A stretch of DNA of 64,000 nt from Nitrospiraceae bacterium (GCA_019637075.1 JAHBWI010000004.1:434001-498000), one strand, 5' to 3'; shown: positions 35,746-61,213, counted from the first letter of the stretch. Program-made: numbers and translations. Notes: generated by a model not told the origin, from the sequence alone.

Positions 35746-36645
35746 TCAGGGAAGAGGGACGGAGAACGTGACTTCGTTTCCGCGGTCGTTGTACGTTACG
35801 TCTGGGAAAAAGGCCCTCGCCAAGAAGACACCACGGCCGTTTGCGTCCCGGCTGTCGCAGGGTTCGTCCGCACGCGTCACAAAGCTCTTCCAACGAAATC
35901 CCTTGCCCTCATCGGTCACGGTATAGCGTAGGACCCTGGCCGTCTTGTCGTAACAGGCCCGGATGATCACCCGGCGCTTGGCAAATCGTGGATCCTGGCG
36001 TCGCTGCTGTATCAGCGCCTCATAGTTGTCATTGGCCAGCGCTTCATGCTTCTCCTGATAGAAAATCTCAAGGCTGCCGTGCTCGACGGCATTGACGATC
36101 AACTCGATCAACGTCGCACGCAGATGCAGCCGCATGGTTTCAGGAAACATCATGGCAGTGCCCTGAATCAGCCACGTGACGCAGGTCTCGACGTAGCCAG
36201 GATCCGTCCCGATGACGATGCGATACTCGAGCTGTTCGATGCCGGGCGCATCTTCCACCGTGCGGGGGATGGCATGCAGCGCCCGATCCAACGCAAGCCC
36301 CAATTCCTCGGAAACAACCGGCTTATGGAGATAGTCGACCGCTCCAGCCCGAAGGGCTTCAACGATCGTGACCTCGTTCCCCTCCTCCGCGGTGAGAATC
36401 AGTGCCGTATGCGGATACCGCGTCCGCACCTGGCGAATCAGGCCCAACCCGCCCATGTCCGGCAAGAACAAATCCGTCAGCACCACGTCGGGCACCGTCA
36501 TGTCCAACATCGTCAACGCCACGTGTGGATCCGGAGCCGTGATGACTGACAATCCTCGAACCTTCGCCTGCTCGAGGGCAAAGGCCTGCAACTCGGGACA
36601 GGGATCGACCACCAGCAGCGTCTTCGCAGCGCCCGGCTGACTCAT
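35746..36645 (-). CDS. Receiver domain fused to an anti-sigma-type HATPase (RsbW/SpoIIAB-like)
   Basis: A 299-residue cytoplasmic protein. Residues about 8-125 are a receiver domain with phospho-acceptor D58 (VVLTDLFLP) and lysine in LHKPVV. The C-terminal part is a small GHKL ATPase of the serine-kinase/anti-sigma group: N-box LIELIVNAVEHGS, G1 box DEGKGF and G2 box NGRGVFLAR. There is no dimerisation or phosphotransfer domain, so it is not a normal histidine kinase. It likely phosphorylates or sequesters STAS or sigma partners under control of its receiver (inference from partner-switching systems). Its ATG overlaps the HPt stop (ATGA). Confidence 0.85.
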   Translation of the reverse strand: MSQPGAAKTLLVVDPCPELQAFALEQAKVRGLSVITAPDPHVALTMLDMTVPDVVLTDLFLPDMGGLGLIRQVRTRYPHTALILTAEEGNEVTIVEALRAGAVDYLHKPVVSEELGLALDRALHAIPRTVEDAPGIEQLEYRIVIGTDPGYVETCVTWLIQGTAMMFPETMRLHLRATLIELIVNAVEHGSLEIFYQEKHEALANDNYEALIQQRRQDPRFAKRRVIIRACYDKTARVLRYTVTDEGKGFRWKSFVTRADEPCDSRDANGRGVFLARAFFPDVTYNDRGNEVTFSVPLP

Positions 36646-37001
36646 GACGGAAATCCTTTCTCCATAATGCATCTCAATTCCTCGGTCAGACGGCCGATCT
36701 CCGCTTCGACCCGCTCACAAAGGGCAATCACCTGATCCTGTTTTCCTCCGCGGGCGGCTTCTTCCAAACTCTTGGCCGCCGCAACGGTCTGATGGGCGCA
36801 GAACTCCATGGCCGAGCCTTTCAACCTGTGTGCCTGCTTGGCCAAAGCAACGAGATCTTGTGCCTGCAACGCCGTACGGATGGCGGCCGTATCTTCCATC
36901 GCCCGCCCGATGAACATTTCGGCGAGGGTGAGGAACAGCTCTTGATCCCCGTCAATGCGCTCAAGCGCCGCGGTTAGATCTATTGCAGATCCTGTACTCA
37001 T
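36642..37001 (-). CDS. Stand-alone histidine phosphotransfer (HPt) protein
   Basis: A 119-residue four-helix HPt protein. The phosphorylatable histidine is H58 in KQAHRLKGSAMEF, the standard HPt signature, followed by a helix with LEEAARGG. No catalytic domain is present, so it passes phosphate between receivers. It lies exactly between two genes whose products carry receiver domains (REC-PP2C upstream and REC-HATPase downstream), with four-base stop/start overlaps on both sides. CheA HPt domains and these receivers could therefore exchange phosphate through it (inference). Confidence 0.88.
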   Translation of the reverse strand: MSTGSAIDLTAALERIDGDQELFLTLAEMFIGRAMEDTAAIRTALQAQDLVALAKQAHRLKGSAMEFCAHQTVAAAKSLEEAARGGKQDQVIALCERVEAEIGRLTEELRCIMEKGFPS

Positions 37002-38257
37002 GGTGTTTCGTCCGTTGCAAGGTCAGGGCCCTCGTCGAAGTGAATCCCCACCAACGCCACATCATCCGGGAACGTTTCTCCCTCCAGCCACTGCCGGGCA
37101 TGCACGATGGTTTCCCGAACGCAGCTTTCGATCGAGGTCGTGCGCTTCGTCTCCAATGTGCTTTGCAGGCGTTGCCGTCCCCACAGTTCTCCGGAAGCGG
37201 CCGGAGCTTCGTAGATTCCGTCGCTGAACAAGTACAAGCGATCGTCCTTATGCAGCTGCGAGAAGACGCTGTGGAACTCCGCCTCAGGATCAAATCCAAG
37301 GGGCAGACTGGAAGAGGTCAACCAGCGTGACACCTCGGCCGACTGTTGCAAGGCGCCGCCGTGCCCCGCAGCGGCATAGAGCAACGACCGAGACGGCAGG
37401 TGAATTCTCCCGACCCACAGCGTGAAATATTCGCCCTCGTTCGTGAGGGGAAACCGGCGATTTGCCTCGGTAATGATCGCTCCTGGGTCGAAGGTTCCGA
37501 CGACTTTGGCCAGGTTCTCCTCTCGAAGGAAACTCATCAACGCGATGGCGCGCAAGGCCGCCGCCACGCCATGCCCCGAGGCGTCCAAGATGTACAGACC
37601 GACTGTATCCGGAGCCCAACGGCTCACCTGAAACAGGTCTCCCCCCAAGGCCAACGACGGCTGATAGGCCCATGCCATGGTCAGGCCTGGAGCCGGATTT
37701 CCCGGGGCAGGAAGCTGCGTGCGAACGAACTCAGCCGCCGATTGCAGCTCGTATTCCAGTTCCTCCTGCTTGGCGGACAGCAATTGGTTGGATCGATCAA
37801 GGTCATCGCGGGTTCGTTCGATCTCCCGAACCAACGCACTCGCACGAAGGTTCGCCTGCACCCTGGCAAGAACTTCCTGCTTACTGGCCGCTTTGCTCAG
37901 GAAATCGTCGGCGCCGCGAGAAAGGCCCTCGGCAATTTGGTCGGGACGGTCGTGGGCGGTCATCAACACGACCTGCATGGACTTTAACGACGGATCGTCG
38001 CGGATGGCCTCACAGACGGACGGACCGTCCAGCCCCGGCATCATCCAATCGAGAATGACCAGATCCGGACGGTGCTTGCGGATCGCCTCCAGTCCGGCGT
38101 TCCCATTGGCGGCTTCGATGACGGTATAGCCCAACCGCTTGAGTCGGCCGGCCATGCTCACTCGCGTGATGTCGTCGTCATCGACGAGCAGAATCAGCGG
38201 CGCCGGCGTCGGGCTCGGCTCGGGTTTGGAAAACGGTTGTTCAGCTGGCAATCCCAC
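36998..38257 (-). CDS. Receiver-PP2C phosphatase (RsbU/SpoIIE-like)
   Basis: A 419-residue cytoplasmic protein. After a proline-rich start, a receiver domain (about residues 20-140) has D70 in LVILDWMMPGLDG. A coiled-coil linker (residues 140-175) leads to a PP2C-type serine phosphatase with ALGGDLFQVSRW, LYILDASGHGVAAAL and LYLFSDGIYEA, the metal-binding aspartates of SpoIIE/RsbU proteins. It probably dephosphorylates the STAS proteins encoded just upstream. The start is GTG at 38257. The stop overlaps the HPt start by four bases. Receiver control of an RsbU-type phosphatase is known (e.g. the RssB/HsbR-type systems). Confidence 0.9.
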   Translation of the reverse strand: MGLPAEQPFSKPEPSPTPAPLILLVDDDDITRVSMAGRLKRLGYTVIEAANGNAGLEAIRKHRPDLVILDWMMPGLDGPSVCEAIRDDPSLKSMQVVLMTAHDRPDQIAEGLSRGADDFLSKAASKQEVLARVQANLRASALVREIERTRDDLDRSNQLLSAKQEELEYELQSAAEFVRTQLPAPGNPAPGLTMAWAYQPSLALGGDLFQVSRWAPDTVGLYILDASGHGVAAALRAIALMSFLREENLAKVVGTFDPGAIITEANRRFPLTNEGEYFTLWVGRIHLPSRSLLYAAAGHGGALQQSAEVSRWLTSSSLPLGFDPEAEFHSVFSQLHKDDRLYLFSDGIYEAPAASGELWGRQRLQSTLETKRTTSIESCVRETIVHARQWLEGETFPDDVALVGIHFDEGPDLATDETP

Positions 38258-38272
38258 ACTTGCACCTTCGAC

Positions 38273-38623
38273 TCAACACGCGAGCGGTAGTCCTCGTCCG
38301 GTCACCGCATCTTGCTCGCTGTCATACACCGCCAGAAGCCGATGGACATTGGCCAGGGCGATGATCTCTCGAACGTAGCTTTGCGGTTTGAGAAGGCTCA
38401 CGACGCCCTGATGCAATTTGAAGCTCTGAGAGGTCAGTGCCAGCATCCCAAGGGCGGAACTGTCGAGAAACCGGACATTTTCCATATTCAGAATGAGATT
38501 CCGACATCCTCCCTGGCGCGCTCGCTCGACCGCCGTTTTGAACGATGTCCGGTTGGCATAGGTCAGTTCACCCACCAGATCGAGGATGACAGCCGATCCC
38601 ACACGACGCTCAGTCACCTGCAT
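38273..38623 (-). CDS. STAS-domain anti-anti-sigma-type protein (first copy)
   Basis: A 116-residue SpoIIAA/RsbV-like protein. The phosphorylatable serine is S55 in VRFLDSSALGMLAL, with the N-terminal strand VILDLVGELTYANR and the C-terminal helix IIALANV. It would be the substrate of the adjacent PP2C phosphatase and the target of the HATPase protein. AAAGGAG precedes the ATG. The REC-PP2C gene follows after 15 bases. A paralogue is encoded next door. Confidence 0.88.
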   Translation of the reverse strand: MQVTERRVGSAVILDLVGELTYANRTSFKTAVERARQGGCRNLILNMENVRFLDSSALGMLALTSQSFKLHQGVVSLLKPQSYVREIIALANVHRLLAVYDSEQDAVTGRGLPLAC

Positions 38624-38661
38624 GGACGACTCCTTTCATCCCGGGTTCGCATCGGTCCACG

Positions 38662-39000
38662 TTACGCGCTCTTCCTCATCAACGGCGCCACGTCCGACTC
38701 AATGACCGGAATGGTCTTGTGCAGGTTTGCCAGCTCGATGATCTGCTTCACCGTGGGTTGCGGTTTATACATCGAGAGCTTGCGTTTCTCCGCGACCAAT
38801 TGCCGATGCGTCACCATCAACAATCCCAAGGCGGCGCTATCGAGAAATGAGACCTGCGAGAGGTCGATGATGATATGCTGCGCATTCTTTCCGCAGGCAT
38901 TCTTGACCGCATCCTGAAACGGCTTGCGCTGCGTATATGTGAAGTTGCCTTCCAACTTCAGCGTCATGGATTGGCCCTGTGCTTCCTCAGTGATCTTCAT
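38662..39000 (-). CDS. STAS-domain anti-anti-sigma-type protein (second copy)
   Basis: A 112-residue STAS protein, similar in length and layout to its neighbour, with S55 in VSFLDSAALGLLMV. The shared motif FLDS.ALG.L and the C-terminal I.ELANLHK suggest a duplication, while the rest differs, so the two may have different partners. GAGGAG lies upstream of the ATG. It begins 29 bases after the CheB gene end, placing the partner-switching module directly in the chemosensory transcript. Confidence 0.88.
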   Translation of the reverse strand: MKITEEAQGQSMTLKLEGNFTYTQRKPFQDAVKNACGKNAQHIIIDLSQVSFLDSAALGLLMVTHRQLVAEKRKLSMYKPQPTVKQIIELANLHKTIPVIESDVAPLMRKSA

Positions 39001-39029: not shown

Positions 39030-40076
39030 TCACATCCGACTGACATGGTTGAGAACCGCCGCCGGGATATCCTGCAAGGGCAGGATCTTTTCCGCAGCAC
39101 CCAGCTTAATGGCTTCCTTCGGCATACCGAACACGATGCACGATGCTTCATCCTGCGCGATCGTGAACGCACCGGCTTGCTTCATCTCCAACAGGCACCG
39201 AGCTCCGTCACCTCCCATGCCGGTCAGAATGACCCCGACGCTGTTGGCGCCGGCGTATTCCGCGACCGAACGGAACATGACATCCACAGACGGCCGATGA
39301 CGATTGACCGGTGGATCCTGGTTAAGTCGAACGGAATACCGAGCGCCGCTCCGCACCAGCGTCATATGGTAATTCCCAGGTGCGATCAGGGCATGGCCCG
39401 GGAGCACGCTGTCGCCGTCCTCGGCCTCCTTGACCTTGATGCGACAGAGGCTGTTGAGGCGGTCGGCGAAGGTCTTGGTAAAGCGCTCCGGCATATGCTG
39501 CGTGACCAGGATCGGCGGAGTGTTGGGCGGAAAGACTTCCAGAACGTCTTTCAACGCCTCCGTTCCCCCGGTTGATGCACCGATCGCGATAATCGTATCG
39601 GTCGTTTTGATCATGGCTGAAGTGAGCGGAGACGGTCGGCGCGGTGCCGTTCCTTCCGGCCCCCTGGGCTTCACGCAAGCTTGGGCCGCCGCCTTAATCT
39701 TCTCAATGAGGTTGCTGGCAACCTCTTCCATGCCCGCTCGCAGGTCAATCTTCGGTTTAGTGATGAAATCGACCGCACCAAGCTCAAGCGCCCGAAGGGT
39801 CGTCTGACACCCTTCCTCGGTCAGCGAACTGACCATCACGACCGGCATCGGGCGACCGCGCATGAGCTTCTCCAGGAATGTGAGCCCGTCCATCTTCGGC
39901 ATTTCAACATCCAACGTCAGCACATCGGGATTGAGCGCCTTGATTTTTTCTCGGGCGATGAAGGGGTCCGGCGCACTGCCGATCACCTCGATGTCCGGAT
40001 CCTTCGACAACAGCTCCGCCAACACTTGCCTCATCAGCGCCGAATCGTCGACTGTCAGCACGCGTATTTTCGCCAT
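39030..40076 (-). CDS. cheB: Protein-glutamate methylesterase CheB (left-hand cluster)
   Basis: CheB removes methyl groups from, and deamidates, chemoreceptors when phosphorylated by CheA. In 348 residues the receiver has D56 ([13 protein letters not shown]) and the esterase has the catalytic serine [12 protein letters not shown], histidine in TQHMPERFT and aspartate in [11 protein letters not shown]. The ATG at 40076 begins at the receiver; four codons upstream another start is possible. It is followed by the STAS/PP2C genes and preceded by cheD. A second, diverged CheB is encoded at 55407-56504. Confidence 0.94.
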
Positions 40077-40156
40077 GACACCCCTCAAACCTTCCGATGC
40101 GTCACAGGCCGTTCACCGTTCGGCGATTCGTCTCGGCCCTTCGCCTCTTTGCAGGC

Positions 40157-40774
40157 TCAGAACAGCGTGACATCACTTTGCTGTGCCTTCTTTTCCTCTT
40201 CGATCCGATGCTGGTACTCAGTCTCTCGATCAAAGATGGTCTTGTTCTTGATGCGTTCGATCTTTTTCATCAGCACCCGACCGGAATCGGTGAAGTAGTA
40301 CACCTTCCGCGGGTACACATCGCCCAGATCGCTGCTCTTGATGGCAAATCCTTCGTCCTTCAGGTAATGGAGCACCCACTCGGTGTTCCTGGCCCCGACG
40401 TCGATGTTCCCCTCGTAGATTCTTCCTGCACCGAACAACTTCACCTCGAGGCGATTCCGATGCCCGCCACGCTTGAGAATTTCATTGATCAATTGTTCCA
40501 TGGCAAACGAGCCGTAGCGGGTGGATTCCCCACCCCACGAATCGCCGGATTGGTGCACTCTTGGCGCCGGCAGCATGAAATGATTCATGCCCCCGATTCC
40601 CGCGATGGGATCGCGGATACAAGCCGAAATGCAGGAGCCCAGGACGGTATATACGACCATCGGTTCCTGACTCACGAAGAACTCCCCGGGCAAAATGGAA
40701 GCGATTTCATACGGAAATCTCGAGTCTCTCATTCGTCGAATATGGGAGAACGACACGGTATCGATAGCGCCCAT
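40157..40774 (-). CDS. cheD: Chemoreceptor glutamine deamidase CheD
   Basis: CheD deamidates glutamines on chemoreceptors. The 205-residue product has the catalytic cysteine C48 (YTVLGSCISACI) and histidine H65 (GGMNHFMLP), 17 residues apart as in Bacillus CheD. The ATG at 40774 lies 5 bases after the cheR stop; a longer frame would run into cheR. The C terminus ends QQSDVTLF, sharing the last four residues with the receptor-like protein of this cluster (see findings). No CheC gene is seen in the window. Confidence 0.93.
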   Translation of the reverse strand: MGAIDTVSFSHIRRMRDSRFPYEIASILPGEFFVSQEPMVVYTVLGSCISACIRDPIAGIGGMNHFMLPAPRVHQSGDSWGGESTRYGSFAMEQLINEILKRGGHRNRLEVKLFGAGRIYEGNIDVGARNTEWVLHYLKDEGFAIKSSDLGDVYPRKVYYFTDSGRVLMKKIERIKNKTIFDRETEYQHRIEEEKKAQQSDVTLF

Positions 40775-40779
40775 GAACC

Positions 40780-41598
40780 TCAGCCTTCCTTCACATAGAT
40801 GGTCGGAGCGACCGTTTTGAACGAATGCGACACCCACTGGAGGCTTTCGGAATGGCCGATGAACAAATGCCCCCCGGGCTTGAGAAGACGATAAAACTTA
40901 TTGACCAAACACTCCTGAGTCGGGCGATCGAAATAAATCATCACGTTGCGGCAGAAGACGACATCGAGCGCAGACTTGATGGGAAACCGATCGTCCATCA
41001 AATTGATCCGCTTGAACTTGATGATGCGCGAAATGTGGGGCTTCACTTTCACCAGTCCGGCCGAATCGCCCCGGCCACGTAAAAAATGGCGTTTGACGAC
41101 ATCCTCGGACACATCGGTCAGCCGGTCGTCCTCATAGACTCCCGCTGCGGCCTTGGCCAGTACGCGGGTAGACAGGTCCGAAGCCAGGACCCTGAAATCC
41201 CACTGTTCAGGGTGGGCCACCGACTCGAAGAGCGTCATCGCGATGGTATAGGGCTCCTCACCGGTGGAGCAGGCTGAAGACCAAATTCGAATCCGCTTGT
41301 CCTTCTCCAGCGTAGGCAGAATGTGTTCCCGTAAAAAGTCAAAATGCTTGGGCTCTCGAAAAAAGTCCGTCTTGTTCGTCGAAATCAAATCCAACATCCG
41401 AGTGAATTCGTCCCTGGTCGAATCACTCATGACAAAATCGTAGTACTTGTCGAACGAGTCGAGCTGTAGGTCGCGCAAACGCTTAGTCAGGCGGGACACC
41501 ACCAGAGACTGCTTGCTCGCTCCCAGTGAGATGCCGCTTTCGGAATAAACGAGCTTGCAAATCTTTTCGTATTCAACCGGCGTAATGGAATATTCCAC
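40780..41598 (-). CDS. cheR: Chemoreceptor methyltransferase CheR (left-hand cluster)
   Basis: CheR methylates receptor glutamates using S-adenosylmethionine. The 272-residue protein has the all-helical N-terminal domain (ISLGASKQSLVVSRLTKRL), the phrase ISTNKTDFFREPKHF, the SAM site WSSACSTGEEPYT, and DVVFCRNVMIYFDRPTQ near the C terminus. Its gene is followed by cheD and cheB, a classic adaptation group, and preceded 9 bases away by the DUF420 gene. The second CheR is at 62386-63249. Confidence 0.94.
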   Translation of the reverse strand: MEYSITPVEYEKICKLVYSESGISLGASKQSLVVSRLTKRLRDLQLDSFDKYYDFVMSDSTRDEFTRMLDLISTNKTDFFREPKHFDFLREHILPTLEKDKRIRIWSSACSTGEEPYTIAMTLFESVAHPEQWDFRVLASDLSTRVLAKAAAGVYEDDRLTDVSEDVVKRHFLRGRGDSAGLVKVKPHISRIIKFKRINLMDDRFPIKSALDVVFCRNVMIYFDRPTQECLVNKFYRLLKPGGHLFIGHSESLQWVSHSFKTVAPTIYVKEG

Positions 41599-41607
41599 GA
41601 GTCCCCC

Positions 41608-42063
41608 CTAGAACCAGACAAAGAGCATGAGGTACACAAGGTACGCAGTGATCATGGTGCCGCTAAAGCTCCACACCAGGGCCTTGCCCATCCGTCGATG
41701 GGTCGTCATGCCTGCAACCATGGCCCCTACGCTGCCGTACCGCAGTCTATGCAACCCCATATACAAGTTGTACCCGCCCAGGACGATGGTCGTGACAGCA
41801 AGCACCATGTGAGTCACGAAGACCGGGACATACCAAGCCCAGTATTCGCTCTCGCTTCCGCGGAAGCTCTCGCGGCCGAACAGGGCCTGTTTGAGCACAT
41901 AGGCCACAAGCCACAACCCGACGATGGTGCAGCCCACAATCATGCGATGAGAATGATGGGTGACATCGTGCGTTTTCGCGGAACGCACGCCGGCAAGGAC
42001 GACGAGGTACGCGATCGTCAGGCTGGAGAGCACTGCGTACCACAGCATCGATTTGAGGTCCAT
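41608..42063 (-). CDS. DUF420-like integral membrane protein
   Basis: A 151-residue protein with four hydrophobic helices and conserved histidine clusters at helix ends (VTHHSHRMIVG, FVTHMVLAVTT, MTTHRRMGKALVW). The spacing and these histidines match DUF420 (YozB/CtaM), which in some bacteria helps mature haem-copper oxidases (family knowledge). Here it stands between a PAS-receptor gene and cheR, with GGGAGG before the ATG and nine bases to cheR, so it is cotranscribed with adaptation genes. Its role in this place is unknown. Similarity is from pattern only. Confidence 0.68.
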   Translation of the reverse strand: MDLKSMLWYAVLSSLTIAYLVVLAGVRSAKTHDVTHHSHRMIVGCTIVGLWLVAYVLKQALFGRESFRGSESEYWAWYVPVFVTHMVLAVTTIVLGGYNLYMGLHRLRYGSVGAMVAGMTTHRRMGKALVWSFSGTMITAYLVYLMLFVWF

Positions 42064-45301: not shown

Positions 45302-45649
45302 CTAGTTCCTGGCCCCCTTCCACACCATGTCGCGCAGAATCTCTTTATGGGGATGGAGACGACGCGCCCGATCCAATAGCACTTCCTCGGATTCCGGGAA
45401 CATCGGATCCGGCACGCAACAGTCACCGATCGGGCAAGCTGAAGCACACTGAGGTTCGGCAAAATGGCCGACACATTCCGTACAGCGGTCATAAGAAATC
45501 ACATACGTGGTGCCGTCGGATCCTTGCCCCCCACTGACATGGTAGCCGTTGGATTCGGCATCGTTGCGCTTCTCAAAAATCGCCTGATTGGGACAAGCCG
45601 GTAGACAGGCGTCACAGGAGATGCAATTGTTATTGATCAGTAACGCCAT
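45302..45649 (-). CDS. 2[4Fe-4S] ferredoxin (YfhL/Allochromatium type)
   Basis: A 115-residue ferredoxin with two cluster sites. The first is C-I-S-C-D-A-C-L-P-A-C-P near residue 9; the second is CTEC-V...Q-CASACP, in which eight residues separate the second and third cysteines, typical of the YfhL/AlvinFd group with low-potential clusters. About 40 residues between the sites are longer than usual. AGGAGG lies before the ATG at 45649. It is placed between ribBA and cheW, an unexpected site for an electron carrier; whether it serves the chemosensory system is unknown. Confidence 0.88.
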   Translation of the reverse strand: MALLINNNCISCDACLPACPNQAIFEKRNDAESNGYHVSGGQGSDGTTYVISYDRCTECVGHFAEPQCASACPIGDCCVPDPMFPESEEVLLDRARRLHPHKEILRDMVWKGARN

Positions 45650-45726
45650 AAAAGTGCCTCCTGGATCGGGCATTCGATCGGCAAGACCATCATCGTGCCC
45701 CTAGACAAGCCCTCGCGCCGTCCGAC

Positions 45727-46935
45727 TCATACGGCCAATAACATGTGTCCCAGCTTGTCTTTCTTGGCTCGCAAATACTTCCGATTGTTCCGACCAGGTC
45801 GAATTTCGAGCGGAATTCGTTCGACGACCTTCAATCCATACCCTTCGATCCCGACGATTTTGCGAGGATTATTCGTCATCAACCTGATGGATCGGAGGCC
45901 GAGGTCGGCAAGAATCTGAGCGCCGACACCGTAATCCCGTAGATCGGCCGGAATGCCCAACTTCAAATTGGCTTCGACCGTGTCGCAGCCCTCGTCTTGA
46001 AGTCCGTACGCCCTGATCTTGTTCAGCAGGCCGATCCCGCGTCCCTCCTGATCCAGATACAGCAAGACACCTTTGCCTTCCTGCTGGATCAATTCCAGCG
46101 CGCGGTGCAACTGATCACCGCAGTCACAACGCAGCGAACCGAACACATCGGCGGTCAGACAGCCAGAGTGGACACGGACCAATGTAGGGCTGTTCACATC
46201 GAGTGGGCCCTTCACAAGCGCCAGATGCGTGCTGCCGTCGATCGTATTCTGATAAGCGACCGCCTCGAACGCACCGAACTTGGTCGGCAACCGCGTGCTG
46301 GCCACCCGGTTGACGAACGATTCGCGTCTCATACGGTATTCGATGAGTGCCTTGATGGTGGTCATCTTCAGCTTGTGCTTGGCGGCGAACCGCTGAAGCT
46401 CGGGAACTCTGGCCATCGTGCCGTCCTCATTCATGATCTCGCAGATGACACCTGCCGGATACAAACCGGCCAAGCGAGCCAGATCGACCGAACCCTCAGT
46501 CTGTCCGGCGCGCTTTAACACCCCTCCTTCTTTGGCCTTGAGCGGAAAAACATGCCCCGGCCGTGCCAGGTCGGCGGGCTGACTCTTGGGATCGATGGCG
46601 ACCCGGATGGTTTGAGCTCTGTCGGCGGCGGAGATCCCCGTTGTAATCCCGTGCTTCGCGTCGATGGATACCGTGAAGGCCGTTCCGAACGCGGTCGTGT
46701 TGTCTGCCGCTTGCTGCGGCAGATGCAGTTGTTCCACCCGCTCGGGAGTCAATGCGAGACATATCAACCCACGGGCATGTTGGGCCATGAAATTGACGGC
46801 GGTCGCGGTGGCAAATTGAGCGGCAACGACGAGGTCTCCTTCGTTTTCCCGATCCTCGTCGTCCACCAAGATGACGCACTGTCCCCGCTTGATGTCACCG
46901 ATCACTTCCTCAATTCGGTCAAACGGAGAGACCAT
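45727..46935 (-). CDS. ribBA: Bifunctional riboflavin enzyme RibBA (DHBP synthase / GTP cyclohydrolase II)
   Basis: This 402-residue enzyme makes both precursors of riboflavin. The N-terminal RibB domain has [36 protein letters not shown] and [17 protein letters not shown]; the C-terminal RibA domain has the zinc-binding [19 protein letters not shown] and [21 protein letters not shown]. Length and motif order are normal for RibBA. GAGGAG five bases before the ATG at 46935 fixes the start over one five codons upstream. It lies 36 bases after cheA within the chemosensory transcript; no other rib gene is present. Confidence 0.94.
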
Positions 46936-46971
46936 ATCGGCTCCTCGCATTCTAGTCGTGGGCGGAGGCGC

Positions 46972-49122
46972 TCACGCCGCCGCAGCCGCGCCGCGGCGCG
47001 CGATATCCAGGACGCCGCGGACGTCGAGAATAAATCCCACCGTGCCGTTGCCCAAGATGGTGGCGCCCGCGACTCCTTCCACTTTCCTGAAATTCTGCTC
47101 CATGCTCTTGATGACGACCTGCTGCTGGCCGAGGATCTCATCGACCATGACGGCCACTCGGTCCCCTTCCGTTTCCAGGATGATCAAAATGGCCTTGCAA
47201 GGGTCGCTGATTTCCGGTTGCAATCCGAACACTTCATACAGCCGCGAGATCGGGAGGTAGACGTCTCGTACGTTGACCAATTCCCCCTTCCCGACCACTT
47301 TCTTCACCATGCTCGGTTTCGGCTGTATCGATTCGAGAATCGACAACAGCGGAACGATGTAGGTATCCCGCCCGACGCGAACCGTCATGCCCTCGATGAT
47401 GGCGAGGGTCAGCGGCAACTTGAGCGTGAAGGTTGTGCCCTTTCCGGTCTGAGTTTTGATACTCACGGTCCCGCCGAGGCCTTCGATGTTGCGCTTGACG
47501 ACATCCATGCCGACGCCGCGCCCTGAAACGTCGGTGACCTTGTCGGCGGTGGAGAAGCCTGGGCGGAAAATCAAGCCCCAGATCTGATCGTCGGAGAGCT
47601 TCTCGGTCTCGCCGACCAATCCCTGCTTGACCGCCTTCGCCAGGATCTTCTCCCGGTTCAAGCCCCGCCCGTCGTCTTCCACGGTGATGCAAATATTGCC
47701 GCCTTCATGAAAGGCGTTCAGCCGGATGGTGCCCTGCTCCGACTTTCCTGCCGCCAGCCGTTCCTCCGGTGGTTCGAGGCCGTGGTCGGCAGAATTCCTG
47801 ACTAGATGGGTCAGCGGATCGCCGATCGATTCAATGACGGTCTTGTCCAATTCCGTCTCTTCGCCGGAGAGCACCAGTTGTATCTTCTTGCCCGCCTTAC
47901 CGGCGAGATCGCGCACCAGCCGTGGGAAGCGGCTGAAAGCCGTCCCGATAGGCAACATCCGAATGCCCATCACCCGTTCCTGGATCTCACGCGTATTGCG
48001 CTCCAATTCGGCCATCCGCTCCAAGAGCAGCGGCAGCTGCTTCATTTCGAACCGCGCCCCGAGATCGCTCAGCATGGATTGGGTGATGACGAGTTCACCG
48101 ACCAGGTTGATCAGCTTATCAATCTTGCTGGTATCGACTCGTATCGACGTCGTATCGGTCTTCTTCGCGGGGCCGGCGCCCTCGGCTTGCTTCCTCAGCG
48201 CATCCGAAATCTGCTCAGGAGTTGCGGCTTTCTGCTCGACTAAGATCTCGCCGACGCGCTTCTGCTGAGCCAAAGCCTGATCCAGGGCCTCACGCGAGAC
48301 CACGCCGGTCTCCACCAGAATTTCGCCCAACGGCTTCTGACCATCCGGTGACGGTCGGTCGGCCGGTACCGCCGATCGGACAGGCTCGTCCTTCACCACC
48401 GCGTCGAGTGCCTCGATCGTGAGTTGGCTGTCATCCCGGACGAAGTCGAAGATTCCTTCGATGACCTTCCGGTCTTTTGCCGTCTCAATCTCAATGGTCC
48501 AGGTGAGATAGCATTCTTCTGCGTCGAAATGCGTCAGATCCGGCAGCCGAGTGGAATCGACCGTCACAGTCGCAAGCCGCCCCAGGTCGCCTGCCTCCTT
48601 GATGAACTGCAGGGGATCAAGGCCGCGTTGGAAGAGGTATGAGGGCGGGGTCCACGAGATTCGATACCGTGTCGTTCCGGAAGGATCCGCGGAACGATGA
48701 GTCGGTGATACCGTCGACGGGGGCGCTCCCTGTTGTATGCCTTGGCTCGATTCGAGCAATCCGCCCAATTCAACGATCGTCGGCTGATCCGGTTCCTGGC
48801 CGGTCCTGGCGCACTCGATCAAGTTTTTCAGGCAGTCAAGCGATCGCAGTAAGAGATCGGTCAACTCGACGGTCACCACCATCTGTCCGCTCCGGAGTTG
48901 ATCCAGGACGGATTCCATCTTATGGGTAAATTGCGACACCGCGGTGAACCCGAACATGCCGCTGTTGCCTTTGATGGAATGGGCGCCGCGGAAGATCCGG
49001 TTCAACAGATCGAGGTCGCCGGGCCGCTGCTCCAACTGCAGCAACCCCTCTTCGATGGTGGTCAGGTGCTCCTGAGACTCTTCGAAGAATGCGTCTTTGA
49101 AATGAGAGAGATCAGTACTCAT
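46972..49122 (-). CDS. cheA: Chemotaxis histidine kinase CheA (left-hand cluster) with MshEN-like motif pair
   Basis: A 716-residue CheA. The HPt domain has phospho-histidine H48 (RGAHSIKGNSGMFGF). A P2-like region spans about 150-245. Residues 264-311 contain two LGEILV-type 24-residue motifs, described separately. The dimerisation helices begin near 330 (KIDKLINLVGELVITQSM), followed by the HATPase (HLVRNSADHGLEPPEERL; GVGMDVVKRNI) and a C-terminal CheW-like regulatory domain (DTYIVPLLSILESIQ). All catalytic boxes look intact. It lies three bases from cheY and 36 bases before ribBA. Confidence 0.94.
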   Translation of the reverse strand: MSTDLSHFKDAFFEESQEHLTTIEEGLLQLEQRPGDLDLLNRIFRGAHSIKGNSGMFGFTAVSQFTHKMESVLDQLRSGQMVVTVELTDLLLRSLDCLKNLIECARTGQEPDQPTIVELGGLLESSQGIQQGAPPSTVSPTHRSADPSGTTRYRISWTPPSYLFQRGLDPLQFIKEAGDLGRLATVTVDSTRLPDLTHFDAEECYLTWTIEIETAKDRKVIEGIFDFVRDDSQLTIEALDAVVKDEPVRSAVPADRPSPDGQKPLGEILVETGVVSREALDQALAQQKRVGEILVEQKAATPEQISDALRKQAEGAGPAKKTDTTSIRVDTSKIDKLINLVGELVITQSMLSDLGARFEMKQLPLLLERMAELERNTREIQERVMGIRMLPIGTAFSRFPRLVRDLAGKAGKKIQLVLSGEETELDKTVIESIGDPLTHLVRNSADHGLEPPEERLAAGKSEQGTIRLNAFHEGGNICITVEDDGRGLNREKILAKAVKQGLVGETEKLSDDQIWGLIFRPGFSTADKVTDVSGRGVGMDVVKRNIEGLGGTVSIKTQTGKGTTFTLKLPLTLAIIEGMTVRVGRDTYIVPLLSILESIQPKPSMVKKVVGKGELVNVRDVYLPISRLYEVFGLQPEISDPCKAILIILETEGDRVAVMVDEILGQQQVVIKSMEQNFRKVEGVAGATILGNGTVGFILDVRGVLDIARRGAAAAA
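48190..48333 (-). other. MshEN-like tandem motif inside CheA (left-hand cluster)
   Basis: Residues 264-311 read PLGEILVETG... and RVGEILVEQK..., each fitting the 24-residue pattern (R)LG-x2-L-x3-G-x6-L-x3-L-x2-Q of MshEN domains, separated by one residue. The first motif lacks the leading Arg; the second lacks the middle Gly. Confidence 0.6.
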
Positions 49123-50653: not shown

Positions 50654-50914
50654 TTATCTATTGCCGGCCGACGGACACAGAGCTTTGGTGAACCCATAGC
50701 TCGCCACTCGTTGACTGCATTCGTCGGACAGACCGCTTACGGCCACCCGCCCGGACAAGTGAGCCGCGATGAGGAGCTGTACGGCGGACGCATCCAGCTT
50801 CGTCACCCGGGACAGATCGAGAGTTACCGGCGCCTCCTCGGCCACAGCGGTTTTCAACGCGTCACACAGCGACCCTACTTCGAAGATGGTCAACTCACCG
50901 GTCGGTTTCAGCAT
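50654..50914 (-). CDS. Small STAS-domain protein (non-phosphorylatable type)
   Basis: An 86-residue STAS protein resembling MlaB/SpoIIAA minimal domains: [36 protein letters not shown] and a C-terminal helix. The position of the phosphorylatable serine is alanine (D41-A42-S43), so the usual serine-kinase switch may not apply. It starts 90 bases after the MotB gene and ends 19 bases before the receptor-like gene. Its partner is unknown; the receptor-like protein or the partner-switch module are candidates (inference). Confidence 0.8.
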
Positions 50915-51004
50915 AGGGAACTCACCAGAAGCAGTCGCAGCGTAAGTAGTATCCGAACATCTCTATCGGTTCGTGCCTTCATTTTCTTAAGCCTCTTAAG
51001 AATC

Positions 51005-51883
51005 CTAGTGTTGTCCGGAGGGAGGACTACCTACGAGTGGGGCTTCCGGCCCAGGCGCAGTCTGAACGAGATTGCCGCTCCGTGCCGCAGGAATTCCGAC
51101 GGTCGGCAATGTCACTCCCGGGACAATCTCTCGATCTTTCGTGCCCTTCGGCGACTCGTCCACCGGAGGACGCTCCAATACCACGATCTCAACTCGGCGA
51201 TTCTTGCTGCGCCCTTCGGGGGTATCATTCGGAACCAGCGGACGGGAATCGGCAAAGCCGGTCGCCGACAGGTGCCTCGGGGGGACGCTATTCAATTCGG
51301 ACAGAATCCGTACGACCATGACCGCACGGGCGGCTGACAGCTCCCAGTTGGAGGGAAATTGGGCCGTCCTGATCGGGACGTTGTCCGTGTGCCCCAGCAC
51401 GCGGACGTGCCGATCCATCTCCACAAGGATTTCCGAGAGCGACTGGAGAAACGGAAGCGCTTCCGATTTGACCCGAGCCTCCCCGCTGTTGAACAGCACG
51501 CTCTCGGGAAGATTGATCACGATTGTCCCGTTCCCGGTCTCCATGATACTGACGTCCTGCAACTCGGGCTTGAGATCGGCCTGTAACCTTTTCATGATCT
51601 GGCGGATGCGCCTGATCACGGGCTCGTTGGCGCTGGCCAACTCCGGATTGATGAGGCGGGGCTTACTGTCGCCGATCGTGAACGGCATCCGGGAAGCCGG
51701 CGCGCTCGTGATCGGGTTGAGAGCGGCCTTGATCGAATCGCTGACCGTGCGATATTTCCCCTCGTTCACGGAGGAGACGGAGTACATGACGACGAAAAAG
51801 GCGAACAGAAGGGTGATGAAGTCCGCGTAGGAGACGAGCCAGCGTTCGTGGTTTTCGTGTTCTTCGTGTTTCTTCTTTGCCAT
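51005..51883 (-). CDS. motB: Flagellar stator protein MotB
   Basis: MotB anchors the stator to peptidoglycan and carries the ion-binding aspartate. The 292-residue product starts with basic/acidic residues, then WLVSYADFITLLFAFFVVMYS with D21, a plug/linker, and an OmpA-type domain (LPESVLFNSGEARV, VLGHTDNVPI, ELSAARAVMVVR, SKNRRVEIVV). A Pro-rich tail of about 50 residues follows. The absence of flagellar structural genes nearby is notable, but the pair lies in the chemosensory region. motA lies 74 bases upstream. Confidence 0.93.
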   Translation of the reverse strand: MAKKKHEEHENHERWLVSYADFITLLFAFFVVMYSVSSVNEGKYRTVSDSIKAALNPITSAPASRMPFTIGDSKPRLINPELASANEPVIRRIRQIMKRLQADLKPELQDVSIMETGNGTIVINLPESVLFNSGEARVKSEALPFLQSLSEILVEMDRHVRVLGHTDNVPIRTAQFPSNWELSAARAVMVVRILSELNSVPPRHLSATGFADSRPLVPNDTPEGRSKNRRVEIVVLERPPVDESPKGTKDREIVPGVTLPTVGIPAARSGNLVQTAPGPEAPLVGSPPSGQH

Positions 51884-51957: not shown

Positions 51958-52728
51958 TTATTTCTTTTCTTCTTTGCTGCGTTCACTGACCGGGAGGAAA
52001 CTTTCCAACTTTTCCTGCAACAGCCTCGGGTTCTCGCCTTGGGCCAGCCCGACCAGCCCCATGATCACCATCGTCCGCATCCCGGCTTCTTCCTTCAGTT
52101 TCAGCTTGATCTTATTGGCCACCGGCAGAAAGAACAGGTTCGCGGCCCCGACGCCGTACACTGTCGCGACAAATGCGACCGCGATACCGCCGCCCAACTT
52201 CGAAGGGTCGGCCAGATTCTCCATGACGTGAATCAAACCCAACACTGCGCCGAGAATACCGACGGTGGGTGCGTACCCTCCGGCGGCCTCCCATACCTTT
52301 GCCGCGATCACGCCCTCTTCTTCATGATGCTCGACATCGATCTCCAGGATTTCCTGCACAACCTTCGGATCTGTTCCGTCGACGATCAGCTGCACACCTT
52401 TCTGAAAAAACGGATCGTGCAGTTCCTTGATCTTCCCCTCTAAGGCCAGGAGTCCCTGTTTCCGGGAAACGTTCGCCAGATCCAAAATCTGGGTGATGGT
52501 GCCTTTGACATCGTGAGCAGGGCTGGAAATAGCCAGCGACAGGGATCCAATCGCTTTGATCACAACGGGCAGCGGGTTCTGAACGCAGCACGCACCGATG
52601 GTGCCCCCCATCACGATGATGAACGCGGTGAGCTGCATGATCGAACCGGCATGACCGCCTTCCAGGGCCTGCCCGCCCAAGATCGATCCGATCGCGATGA
52701 CGATCCCCAGTATGGTTGCGATATCCAC
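51958..52728 (-). CDS. motA: Flagellar stator protein MotA
   Basis: A 256-residue four-helix membrane protein: ATILGIVIAIGSILGG and FIIVMGGTIGACCV at the N terminus, a cytoplasmic loop with charged residues (VEHHEEEGVIAAKVWEAAGG), and the TM3-TM4 pair with APTVGILGAVLGLIHVMENL and GGGIAVAFVATVYGVGAANLFF, including the conserved prolines and glycines. The pattern resembles PomA/MotA; the coupling ion cannot be read with confidence. The start is GTG at 52728 with GAGGTAGG upstream. motB follows after 74 bases. Confidence 0.93.
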   Translation of the reverse strand: MDIATILGIVIAIGSILGGQALEGGHAGSIMQLTAFIIVMGGTIGACCVQNPLPVVIKAIGSLSLAISSPAHDVKGTITQILDLANVSRKQGLLALEGKIKELHDPFFQKGVQLIVDGTDPKVVQEILEIDVEHHEEEGVIAAKVWEAAGGYAPTVGILGAVLGLIHVMENLADPSKLGGGIAVAFVATVYGVGAANLFFLPVANKIKLKLKEEAGMRTMVIMGLVGLAQGENPRLLQEKLESFLPVSERSKEEKK

Positions 52729-59317: not shown

Positions 59318-61213
59318 TCATGCGGCGAACGCCGCCGCGTGCCACGCTTGCGCGTTTTGGACCAATTCCGAGGTGTCCAGGATCAGGACCACTTTGCCTT
59401 CACCGGTGATCGTGGCCCCGGATACGCCTTTGACGGTTTCGAGGTAATCCCAGATGGACTTGATGACCACTTCTTCCTGCGATCGCAGTTCGTCGACGAC
59501 GATCCCGACCCGCCGGTCGCCCAATGCGGCCACGACGACGTAGAACCGATCCCGATCGATCTCGTGCGGCACGTCGAATTCCTGCGCCAATCGAATCAGC
59601 GGGAGGACGCGGTCGCGGAGATGCAGGACTTCCCGACCGTTGATCGTCTTGATGTCCGACTTCGTGATTCGGACGGCTTCGATGACGGAGCTGAGCGGAA
59701 TCGCAAAAATCGATCGTTGGACTTCCACCATCAGGGCTTGAATAATGGCGATCGTCAACGGCAGCTTGATGATGATCTGACTGCCCTTCCCTTGCTCCGA
59801 CTCCAAATCCACCGTACCGTTGATCTTGCGGATGTTCGTCCTAACCACATCCATGCCGACACCGCGGCCCGAGACGTCCGTCACTTTTTCGGCGGTGCTG
59901 AATCCCGGCAGGAAGATCAGGTTGAGCACCTCGCGATGCTCCATCGTGGCCAACTCGGCTTCGCTCACCAGGCCCTTGGCCAGAGCCTTGGCCTTGACCT
60001 TGTCCACCGCGATGCCGCGTCCGTCGTCGCTGATGCGAATGACGATGCTGTTGCCTTCCTGGCTCGCCGCGATGACCAGGCTTCCCTCGCCTTGCTTCCC
60101 CTTCTGCTGGCGCTCGGCCGGCGTTTCAATGCCATGATCGATCGCATTGCGCACAATGTGTACGAGCGGATCGCCGATCTCATCGGCAACGGATTTGTCG
60201 AGTTCAGTTTCCTCGCCGCGCATTTCGAGGCGCACCTGTTTTCCGAGCTTCTGCGAGAGATCCCGCACCATTCGGGGCAGCTTGGCGAAGACCTTCTTGA
60301 TGGGAAGCATCCGGGTCTTCATCACCGCCAACTGCAGGTCCGTCGTCACCAGATTCAGCTGGGCGAGGGTTTCACCCAGAGCCCGCACTTGGGGATCGGA
60401 TTCATGGTTCTGTTCCAGTTGCGTTCCGATCTTGATCAACCGGTTTCGCCCGAGCACCAGCTCGCCGACCAGGTTCATGACGCTGTCCAAGCGCTTCGTT
60501 TCAACCCGGATCGTGGCATCCTCTTCGGCCGGTTTCCCGGGCTTCTCTTGTTTCTGAAGGGCGTGATCCAGGGCACGTTCTGTAATGGCTTTCGCCTGGA
60601 GTAAGATTTCGCCGAGCGGCGGCTTCGGATCCGGCTGGTGCTGTTGGGCGTTGAGGGCGTCCAACACCTGCTCCTTGCTGGCCAGCCCCTCGTTCACCAA
60701 AATTTCGCCCAAGGTAGGGGCGACATGCGCCGGCTCGGAGGGAGCGGGAGCGGCAGGTTCTGCCTGCGCGGCCGCCGCGGGCGTGGCGCTCGGGGGCGCC
60801 GCCGGCATCGCCGCTTCGCCGACCTTCCCGTTGATGATGTCGTCGAGCCTGGCTGCAATCTCGGCTGTGGCGACGTTGTTGTCCGTTCCGGTGTCCTTGA
60901 TGTCCGCCATGAGGGCCTTGATGATGTCGACGGCTTCCAGAATGACGCTGATCACTGCCGGAACCACCGCCATTTCCCCCTGCCGGAGCTTGTTGAGAAT
61001 GTTTTCGCCGCGATGCGCCACGTCCACCAGATGCGTGAACCCGAGGAATCCCGCGGAGCCCTTCATGCTGTGCATGGCCCGGAAGATTTCGTTCAGCAGA
61101 TCCTTGTTGGTGGGATCGGACTCCAGGGCGACGAAGCGCTGGTCGAGCACCTCGAGCATCTCGTTGGATTCGGTCAGAAAGTCGTTCAGAATTTCCTGCA
61201 TTTCATCGCTCAT
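59318..61213 (-). CDS. cheA: Chemotaxis histidine kinase CheA (right-hand cluster) with MshEN-like motif pair
   Basis: A 631-residue CheA. HPt histidine H48 is in RAMHSMKGSAGFLGF. An Ala/Pro-rich linker (about 133-166) leads to two LGEIL motifs (167-222; separate entry). The dimerisation region starts near 240 (RLDSVMNLVGELVLGRNRL), the HATPase has HIVRNAIDHGIETPAE and GVGMDVVRTNIRK, and a CheW-like domain closes the protein. A P2 domain is not obvious, so CheY may dock elsewhere. GGAGGAAG precedes the ATG. It is 111 bases downstream of cheZ. Confidence 0.94.
   Translation of the reverse strand: MSDEMQEILNDFLTESNEMLEVLDQRFVALESDPTNKDLLNEIFRAMHSMKGSAGFLGFTHLVDVAHRGENILNKLRQGEMAVVPAVISVILEAVDIIKALMADIKDTGTDNNVATAEIAARLDDIINGKVGEAAMPAAPPSATPAAAAQAEPAAPAPSEPAHVAPTLGEILVNEGLASKEQVLDALNAQQHQPDPKPPLGEILLQAKAITERALDHALQKQEKPGKPAEEDATIRVETKRLDSVMNLVGELVLGRNRLIKIGTQLEQNHESDPQVRALGETLAQLNLVTTDLQLAVMKTRMLPIKKVFAKLPRMVRDLSQKLGKQVRLEMRGEETELDKSVADEIGDPLVHIVRNAIDHGIETPAERQQKGKQGEGSLVIAASQEGNSIVIRISDDGRGIAVDKVKAKALAKGLVSEAELATMEHREVLNLIFLPGFSTAEKVTDVSGRGVGMDVVRTNIRKINGTVDLESEQGKGSQIIIKLPLTIAIIQALMVEVQRSIFAIPLSSVIEAVRITKSDIKTINGREVLHLRDRVLPLIRLAQEFDVPHEIDRDRFYVVVAALGDRRVGIVVDELRSQEEVVIKSIWDYLETVKGVSGATITGEGKVVLILDTSELVQNAQAWHAAAFAA
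60548..60715 (-). other. MshEN-like tandem motif inside CheA (right-hand cluster)
   Basis: Residues 167-190 (TLGEILVNEG...ALNAQ) and 199-222 (PLGEILLQAK...ALQKQ) both fit the MshEN spacing LG-x2-L-x3-(G)-x6-(L/V)-x3-L-x2-Q, with an eight-residue spacer. Neither has the leading Arg and the second has Lys for Gly. Confidence 0.6.

Follow-up and report, generated by a model that had tools for sequence, protein, structure and literature searches.

Organization of the locus

The window (the whole stretch of DNA that was analysed, 64,000 nucleotides) is part of a 4.06-Mb genome from the family that holds Nitrospira. A module of five genes lies on its minus strand, 3′ of cheR-cheD-cheB, and codes for two STAS proteins, a receiver-phosphatase (REC-PP2C), an HPt protein and a receiver-ATPase (REC-HATPase). 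The module and its context are as follows:

38662..39000, minus strand: STAS protein 1 (STAS1), 112 aa; Pfam STAS 3.9e-16, NCBIfam ant_ant_sig passes its cut-off
38273..38623, minus strand: STAS protein 2 (STAS2), 116 aa; Pfam STAS 4.9e-18
36998..38257, minus strand: REC-PP2C (SpoIIE-type) phosphatase, 419 aa; Pfam 5.8e-34 and 6.1e-27
36642..37001, minus strand: stand-alone HPt protein, 119 aa; Pfam 6.8e-12
35746..36645, minus strand: REC-HATPase_c_2 (predicted RsbW/SpoIIAB-like serine kinase), 299 aa; Pfam 1e-10
39030..40088, minus strand: cheB (REC-methylesterase), context; Pfam CheB 2.5e-68
40157..40837, minus strand: cheD, context; Pfam CheD 1.3e-26
40780..41598, minus strand: cheR, context; Pfam CheR 1.1e-63
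46972..49122, minus strand: cheA of the neighbouring block; Pfam CheA domains including Hpt
51005-51883, minus strand: motB, flagellar stator; MotB Pfam
51958-52728, minus strand: motA, flagellar stator; homology

A preliminary annotation made from the DNA alone (hereafter the sequence-only reading) had described five genes following cheB with small gaps or overlaps, and gene calls and Pfam matches confirm all five. The spacing is 29 bp between cheB and STAS1, 38 bp between STAS1 and STAS2, and 15 bp between STAS2 and REC-PP2C; REC-PP2C and HPt overlap by 4 bp, as do HPt and REC-HATPase (ATGA). Pfam E-values in the module range from 6e-34 (SpoIIE) to 1e-10 (HATPase_c_2) and every one passes the curated cut-off. 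The REC-HATPase ORF most likely starts at 36645, which gives the 299 aa seen in most orthologues, in place of the 36672 assigned by mechanical ORF calling. The gene order on the minus strand is motA-motB-STAS-MCP-cheY-cheA-[ribBA-ferredoxin]-cheW-MCP, continued by DUF420-cheR-cheD-cheB-STAS1-STAS2-REC-PP2C-HPt-REC-HATPase. Scanning the region for promoters and terminators gave a number of sites not above that of shuffled sequence.

The absence of a sigma factor and of a dedicated histidine kinase, also remarked upon in the sequence-only reading, was upheld: CheAs are the only histidine kinases found in or beside the module, and no sigma gene, a feature of the Rsb/SpoII switches, was found among its neighbours. 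Elsewhere in the genome there are ~50 HisKA kinases (genome-wide statements are based on family searches). A STAS match at C2:394451 has a sigma-70-like neighbour, but only 60 of the 106 STAS profile positions are matched and it was rejected as evidence of a linked sigma factor. The STAS protein encoded at 50687-50932, upstream of MCP-cheY-cheA, is an unlikely substrate of the module, with Ala at the phosphosite (LDASAVQ).

Conserved features of the module proteins

The phospho-acceptor of both STAS proteins is predicted to be Ser55, found within LDSAALG in STAS1 and LDSSALG in STAS2, and the serine is invariant in neighbouring loci (65/65). STAS2-type proteins (clade of 41, support 0.96) are present in nearly all sampled module loci while the STAS1 type (clade of 24, support 0.94) is an optional paralogue; as judged from their sequences the two are old paralogues. 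STAS1 is a candidate anti-anti-sigma factor or partner-switch output. The genome search retrieved a single strong SpoIIE-type phosphatase, REC-PP2C. Its metal-binding acids are invariant in neighbouring loci (39/39) and its receiver is canonical (D/D/D/T/K), both acids, Asp57, the Thr/Ser and the Lys being retained in 39/39 members.

The HPt protein carries His58 within AHRLKGS, a histidine invariant in 44/44 proteins of neighbouring loci. Its best solved match is 7c1i_A (1.2e-13; the next is at 3e-8), which we take to be P. aeruginosa HptB. A module-HPt profile, built without the HPts of kinase-fused proteins, gave its best scores after the module's own HPts to those kinase-fused HPts (66-87 bits), followed by other HPts of hybrid kinases or of their neighbours (24-56 bits) and the ChpA-like P1 (15 bits); flagellar CheA P1 was absent from the reported matches of this search. 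The module HPt thus appears to resemble HptB and the HPts of hybrid kinases, and far less CheA P1. It is the genome's only stand-alone HPt that does not adjoin its own hybrid kinase.

The ATP-binding boxes of REC-HATPase are intact, with the Glu and Asn of the GHKL N-box invariant (43/43). Its receiver in the window is atypical, with DP for DD and Ala at the T87 position. Among 42 such receivers Asp57 is kept in 41, the second acid is Pro in 28, T87 is replaced by Ala/Gly in 23 and Lys109 is substituted in 10; a fully canonical receiver occurs in L094-L096, members of a sister family whose HPt is fused to a kinase. The sequence-only reading had two receivers taking part in phosphotransfer. Judged by residues, the phosphatase receiver is a good candidate for this role but that of the kinase is a doubtful one, being degenerate in the majority of family members, and REC-HATPase is probably under weak or no direct phosphate control. 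REC-HATPase was modelled with AlphaFold2 (pLDDT 87, pTM 0.62); a Foldseek comparison of the model with known structures gave Leptospira LvrC (9qih) as best match (E 5e-20) with both domains covered, and LvrC is also the closest solved structure by sequence (4.9e-9). The TM of about 0.45 with an rmsd near 10 suggests that the two domains are placed differently relative to each other in the model and in LvrC. A second REC-HATPase (L038:3595-4518) was rejected as a second module, its neighbours including no STAS or PP2C gene.

Conservation of the module in the family

Of the 103 family genomes tabulated, 80 have a REC-HATPase orthologue. Among 80 named loci, 58 extend far enough upstream to be informative. 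HPt, REC-PP2C and at least one STAS protein occur together in all 58 informative loci, always with kinase and phosphatase encoded by separate genes as in the window. The set is not a chance assembly, since it recurs at these frequencies. The next gene upstream is cheB in 50 of the 58 and motB in the other eight, and in all eight named loci that lack the che genes motAB lies directly upstream of the module. The che block is gone beside a retained module in at least three genera (L074/L075/L078/L105; L107; L087), and at L083 the module is intact while only fragments matching cheB and cheR are left. Candidatus Nitrospira defluvii FP929003 (L183) has an arrangement identical to that of the window as far as its locus extends. 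The frequent operon arrangement with cheRDB suggests some link to chemosensing.

Input to the module

The sequence-only reading proposed that CheA of the adjacent operon phosphorylates the HPt, which would hand the phosphate to both receivers so that chemosensory signals set the state of the STAS proteins. This is consistent with the apparent operon with cheRDB and with the presence of a flagellar-type CheA in 70 of the 80 genomes with the module versus 10 of the 23 without it. However, the module outlives both the che block (see above) and flagellar-type CheA, which is missing from ten genomes that have the module (G043, G077, G102, G121, G167, G212, G214, G267, G301, G373). Nine of these have only a weaker match to a long ChpA-like CheA (best E near 1e-10 to 1e-11; more than 1,100 aa where the length is listed), and G077 has no CheA match at all. 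Dependence of the module on a local CheA, expected of a CheA-driven chemosensory output, is thus not seen in these ten genomes, some of which are fragmented and incomplete (the G043 assembly, at 99% completeness, has 8 contigs). G077 was not retained as a decisive CheA-less case: its contig stops inside the MCP gene beside the module, possibly an assembly gap. Most genomes with the module still carry a long ChpA-like CheA, an observation that runs counter to the reading preferred below.

The finding of the module elsewhere with a hybrid kinase of its own had been named in advance, in the sequence-only reading, as grounds for refuting CheA wiring, and such loci exist. In one genus, at L087 (G127), where cheRDB is absent, a PAS-GAF-HisKA-HATPase-REC-REC hybrid kinase lies between REC-PP2C and HPt, and in a related family (L094-L096) the HPt forms the C-terminal part of a HisKA-HATPase-REC kinase adjoining REC-HATPase. 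Phosphorelays normally run His-Asp-His-Asp, which makes a receiver, and not CheA-P1 itself, the donor to an HPt; a His-to-His transfer would be unusual chemistry. Together with an HPt unlike CheA P1 and the degenerate kinase receiver, this leaves CheA input unsupported, though not disproved, and we consider it very unlikely. Separate sensor kinases, and not the neighbouring chemotaxis kinase, probably feed the module. At least five hybrid kinases of the host genome lack an HPt, among them those at C3:242.8k, C3:245.7k, C3:482.8k, C1:518k and C3:213.6k; these and the unpaired stand-alone HPt fit a supply of phosphate by orphan hybrids like that in P. aeruginosa. A search for orthologues of the L087 hybrid kinase gave several matches in the genome with 46-50% identity in the kinase core, none of which stands out as a single donor.

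Output of the module

FlgM is found in 77 of the 80 module genomes versus 9 of the other 23 (Fisher p about 6e-9, with no phylogenetic correction), an association that may originate from shared flagellar ancestry. In all 39 genomes with both on one contig they are 27-78 kb apart (the distance in G204 taken around the circle). This distance and the motAB neighbours place the module in the flagellar region, and a flagellar output is probable. Three genomes with the module have no detected FlgM (G077, G167, G224), so there may be targets besides FlgM. A c-di-GMP target also has to be considered because in L094 and L096 of the sister family an HD-GYP gene separates STAS from the hybrid kinase.

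Two other outputs were weighed. REC-HATPase might be a true anti-sigma factor that holds a sigma factor directly, to be freed by the STAS proteins. Its closest relative by both sequence and fold, LvrC, is described as an RsbW/SpoIIAB-like anti-sigma factor under receiver control (PMC13269768) and has been proposed to sequester a sigma factor in this way, HsbR and CrsR bind RpoS (PMC6482189), and the genome search gave 14 sigma-70 region-2 matches. Against this, the module has no linked sigma gene, the REC-HATPase receiver has lost canonical residues in most members where that of LvrC is canonical, and sequence cannot separate a kinase from an anti-sigma role; we regard this output as unlikely. 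A post-transcriptional action of STAS on the motility machinery or on c-di-GMP enzymes (MotAB, HD-GYP, diguanylate cyclase), involving no sigma factor, is improbable. It would account for motAB directly upstream in 8/8 che-less loci, for motB within the cluster in L097 and for the HD-GYP gene of L094 and L096, and has a precedent in HsbA-HsbD (PMC5085249), but the association is one of gene order and the HD-GYP linkage is confined to the sister family.

Comparison with known partner switches

The phosphatase-STAS-kinase logic is that of RsbU/RsbV/RsbW and SpoIIE/SpoIIAA/SpoIIAB of Bacillus, in which a cognate sigma gene accompanies the core switch and neither HPt nor receivers are present. The same conserved residues (STAS Ser, PP2C metal site and kinase N-box) are found here in 65, 39 and 43 sequences, respectively; unlike the Bacillus systems the module includes an HPt and receivers and no linked sigma gene.

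The closest likeness is to HptB-HsbR-HsbA(-FlgM/HsbD) of P. aeruginosa, a switch between biofilm and swimming, which shares the phospho-Ser STAS protein, the PP2C under a canonical receiver, the stand-alone HPt with a phosphorylatable His and HptB-like sequence, the serine kinase, and a location near chemotaxis and flagellar genes. There the hsbA-hsbR-hptB operon lies beside cheR/cheW/flgM and receives its input from orphan, unlinked hybrid kinases (PMC5085249; PMC6482189), an input that may also apply here. In Pseudomonas this set of parts frees FliA via FlgM and, when phosphorylated, activates a diguanylate cyclase (PMC5085249). HsbR combines receiver, phosphatase and kinase in one protein, whereas in the module phosphatase and kinase are encoded separately, both proteins carry a receiver, and a second STAS protein is often present. 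As the single-chain HsbR is lacking, we do not count the module as a member of the HptB-HsbR-HsbA group. The parts and their logic are known; the arrangement, with HsbR functions on separate genes with separate receivers, is new.

The REC-Bergerat (RsbW-like) architecture of the kinase is itself already known from LvrC, which is likewise fed by two-component kinases. Unlike the module kinase, LvrC has a canonical receiver on its Bergerat domain, charged directly by LvrB, and the accessible part of its description mentions no adjacent HPt, STAS or PP2C (PMC13269768). Separate phosphatase, STAS and kinase genes are also found in HmpU/HmpV/HmpW of Nostoc punctiforme, which control motility; that system belongs to a cyanobacterial motility and polysaccharide locus and the review passage on it mentions no HPt (PMC8256260).

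Proposed mechanism

We propose, with a probability of about 0.6, that the module is a phosphorelay-controlled partner switch working like HptB-HsbR-HsbA, driven by orphan hybrid kinases and with a motility factor as likely target. Hybrid histidine kinases encoded elsewhere would phosphorylate the HPt through their receivers, and the phosphorylated HPt would charge the canonical receiver of REC-PP2C, leading to dephosphorylation of STAS. The separate REC-HATPase would phosphorylate the same STAS serines and so set the opposing tone, STAS and phosphorylated STAS exchanging partners. The likeliest target would be flagellar: FlgM, whose binding would free FliA, or a different motility component, for example a stator or c-di-GMP protein.

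A bolder version, which we hold to be unlikely, is that the Hsb switch was rewired in this lineage: the kinase split off and its receiver decayed, leaving the phosphatase alone to hear the phosphorelay, with the kinase fixed or sensing otherwise and the two STAS proteins each serving its own motility target, FlgM in one case and a stator or c-di-GMP protein in the other. If true, swimming in Nitrospira would be coupled to sensing by hybrid kinases.

Nitrospira have a key place among nitrite oxidisers, and the literature searched contained no paper linking them with partner switching. If the proposed mechanism is correct, an Hsb-like switch under orphan hybrid kinases would set the choice between swimming and settling in nitrifying biofilms. 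The locus also carries a warning for annotation, in that genes sharing an operon with cheRDB need not receive their input from CheA. The separate genes should make control of the kinase and of the phosphatase separable in vitro.

CheA proteins and neighbouring genes

The two CheA proteins encoded in the window scored 48.4 and 50.6 bits in a search of NCBIfam for NF053729, whose cut-off is 38 bits:

window 46972-49122, minus strand, CheA with MshEN-like half-motifs
window 59318-61213, minus strand, CheA with MshEN-like half-motifs

The c-di-GMP-binding half-motifs (for example LGEILVETGVVSREALDQALAQQ) are found in tandem, N-terminal to the dimerisation domain. Because both CheAs carry them, their sequences suggest that c-di-GMP is an input to the chemotaxis kinases. 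A longer, ChpA-like CheA is encoded in a separate che cluster of genome G000:

G000:C1:276818-279670 (= L039:10335-13709), 1124 aa, several HPt domains and a receiver

Two further features lie in the che/mot region:

window 45302-46950, minus strand, ribBA and a ferredoxin-like gene
window 41608-42063, minus strand, DUF420 membrane protein gene

The former separate cheA from cheW, unlike in the sampled relatives, where neighbourhood comparison showed the two genes directly adjoining. The latter is a recurrent neighbour, positioned at many module loci either between the MCP gene and cheR or next to motAB.

STAS genes and module variants

STAS genes outside the module occur near MCP, cheY and cheA genes:

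window 50687-50932, minus strand, phospho-Ser missing, LDASAVQLL at the site
L037:12196-12495, corresponding motif VDTAGIQLL

Judged by sequence, these are a kind distinct from the module STAS proteins. The module itself varies among relatives:

L106:5527-7628 and L166:6241-8370, tandem-duplicated STAS and REC-PP2C pair within the module
L097:2962-3642 (genome G189), receiver-less stand-alone HATPase_c_2 protein replacing REC-HATPase

With such a duplication the module may hold two switches working in parallel, both served by a single HPt and a single kinase. In G189 motB is also inserted ahead of cheB. Sister-family loci carry additional genes around STAS:

L094:8994-11935, CheX-like (verified), PilZ, DUF3391-HD-GYP
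L096:7260-10172, CheX-like (by sequence resemblance), DUF3391-HD-GYP
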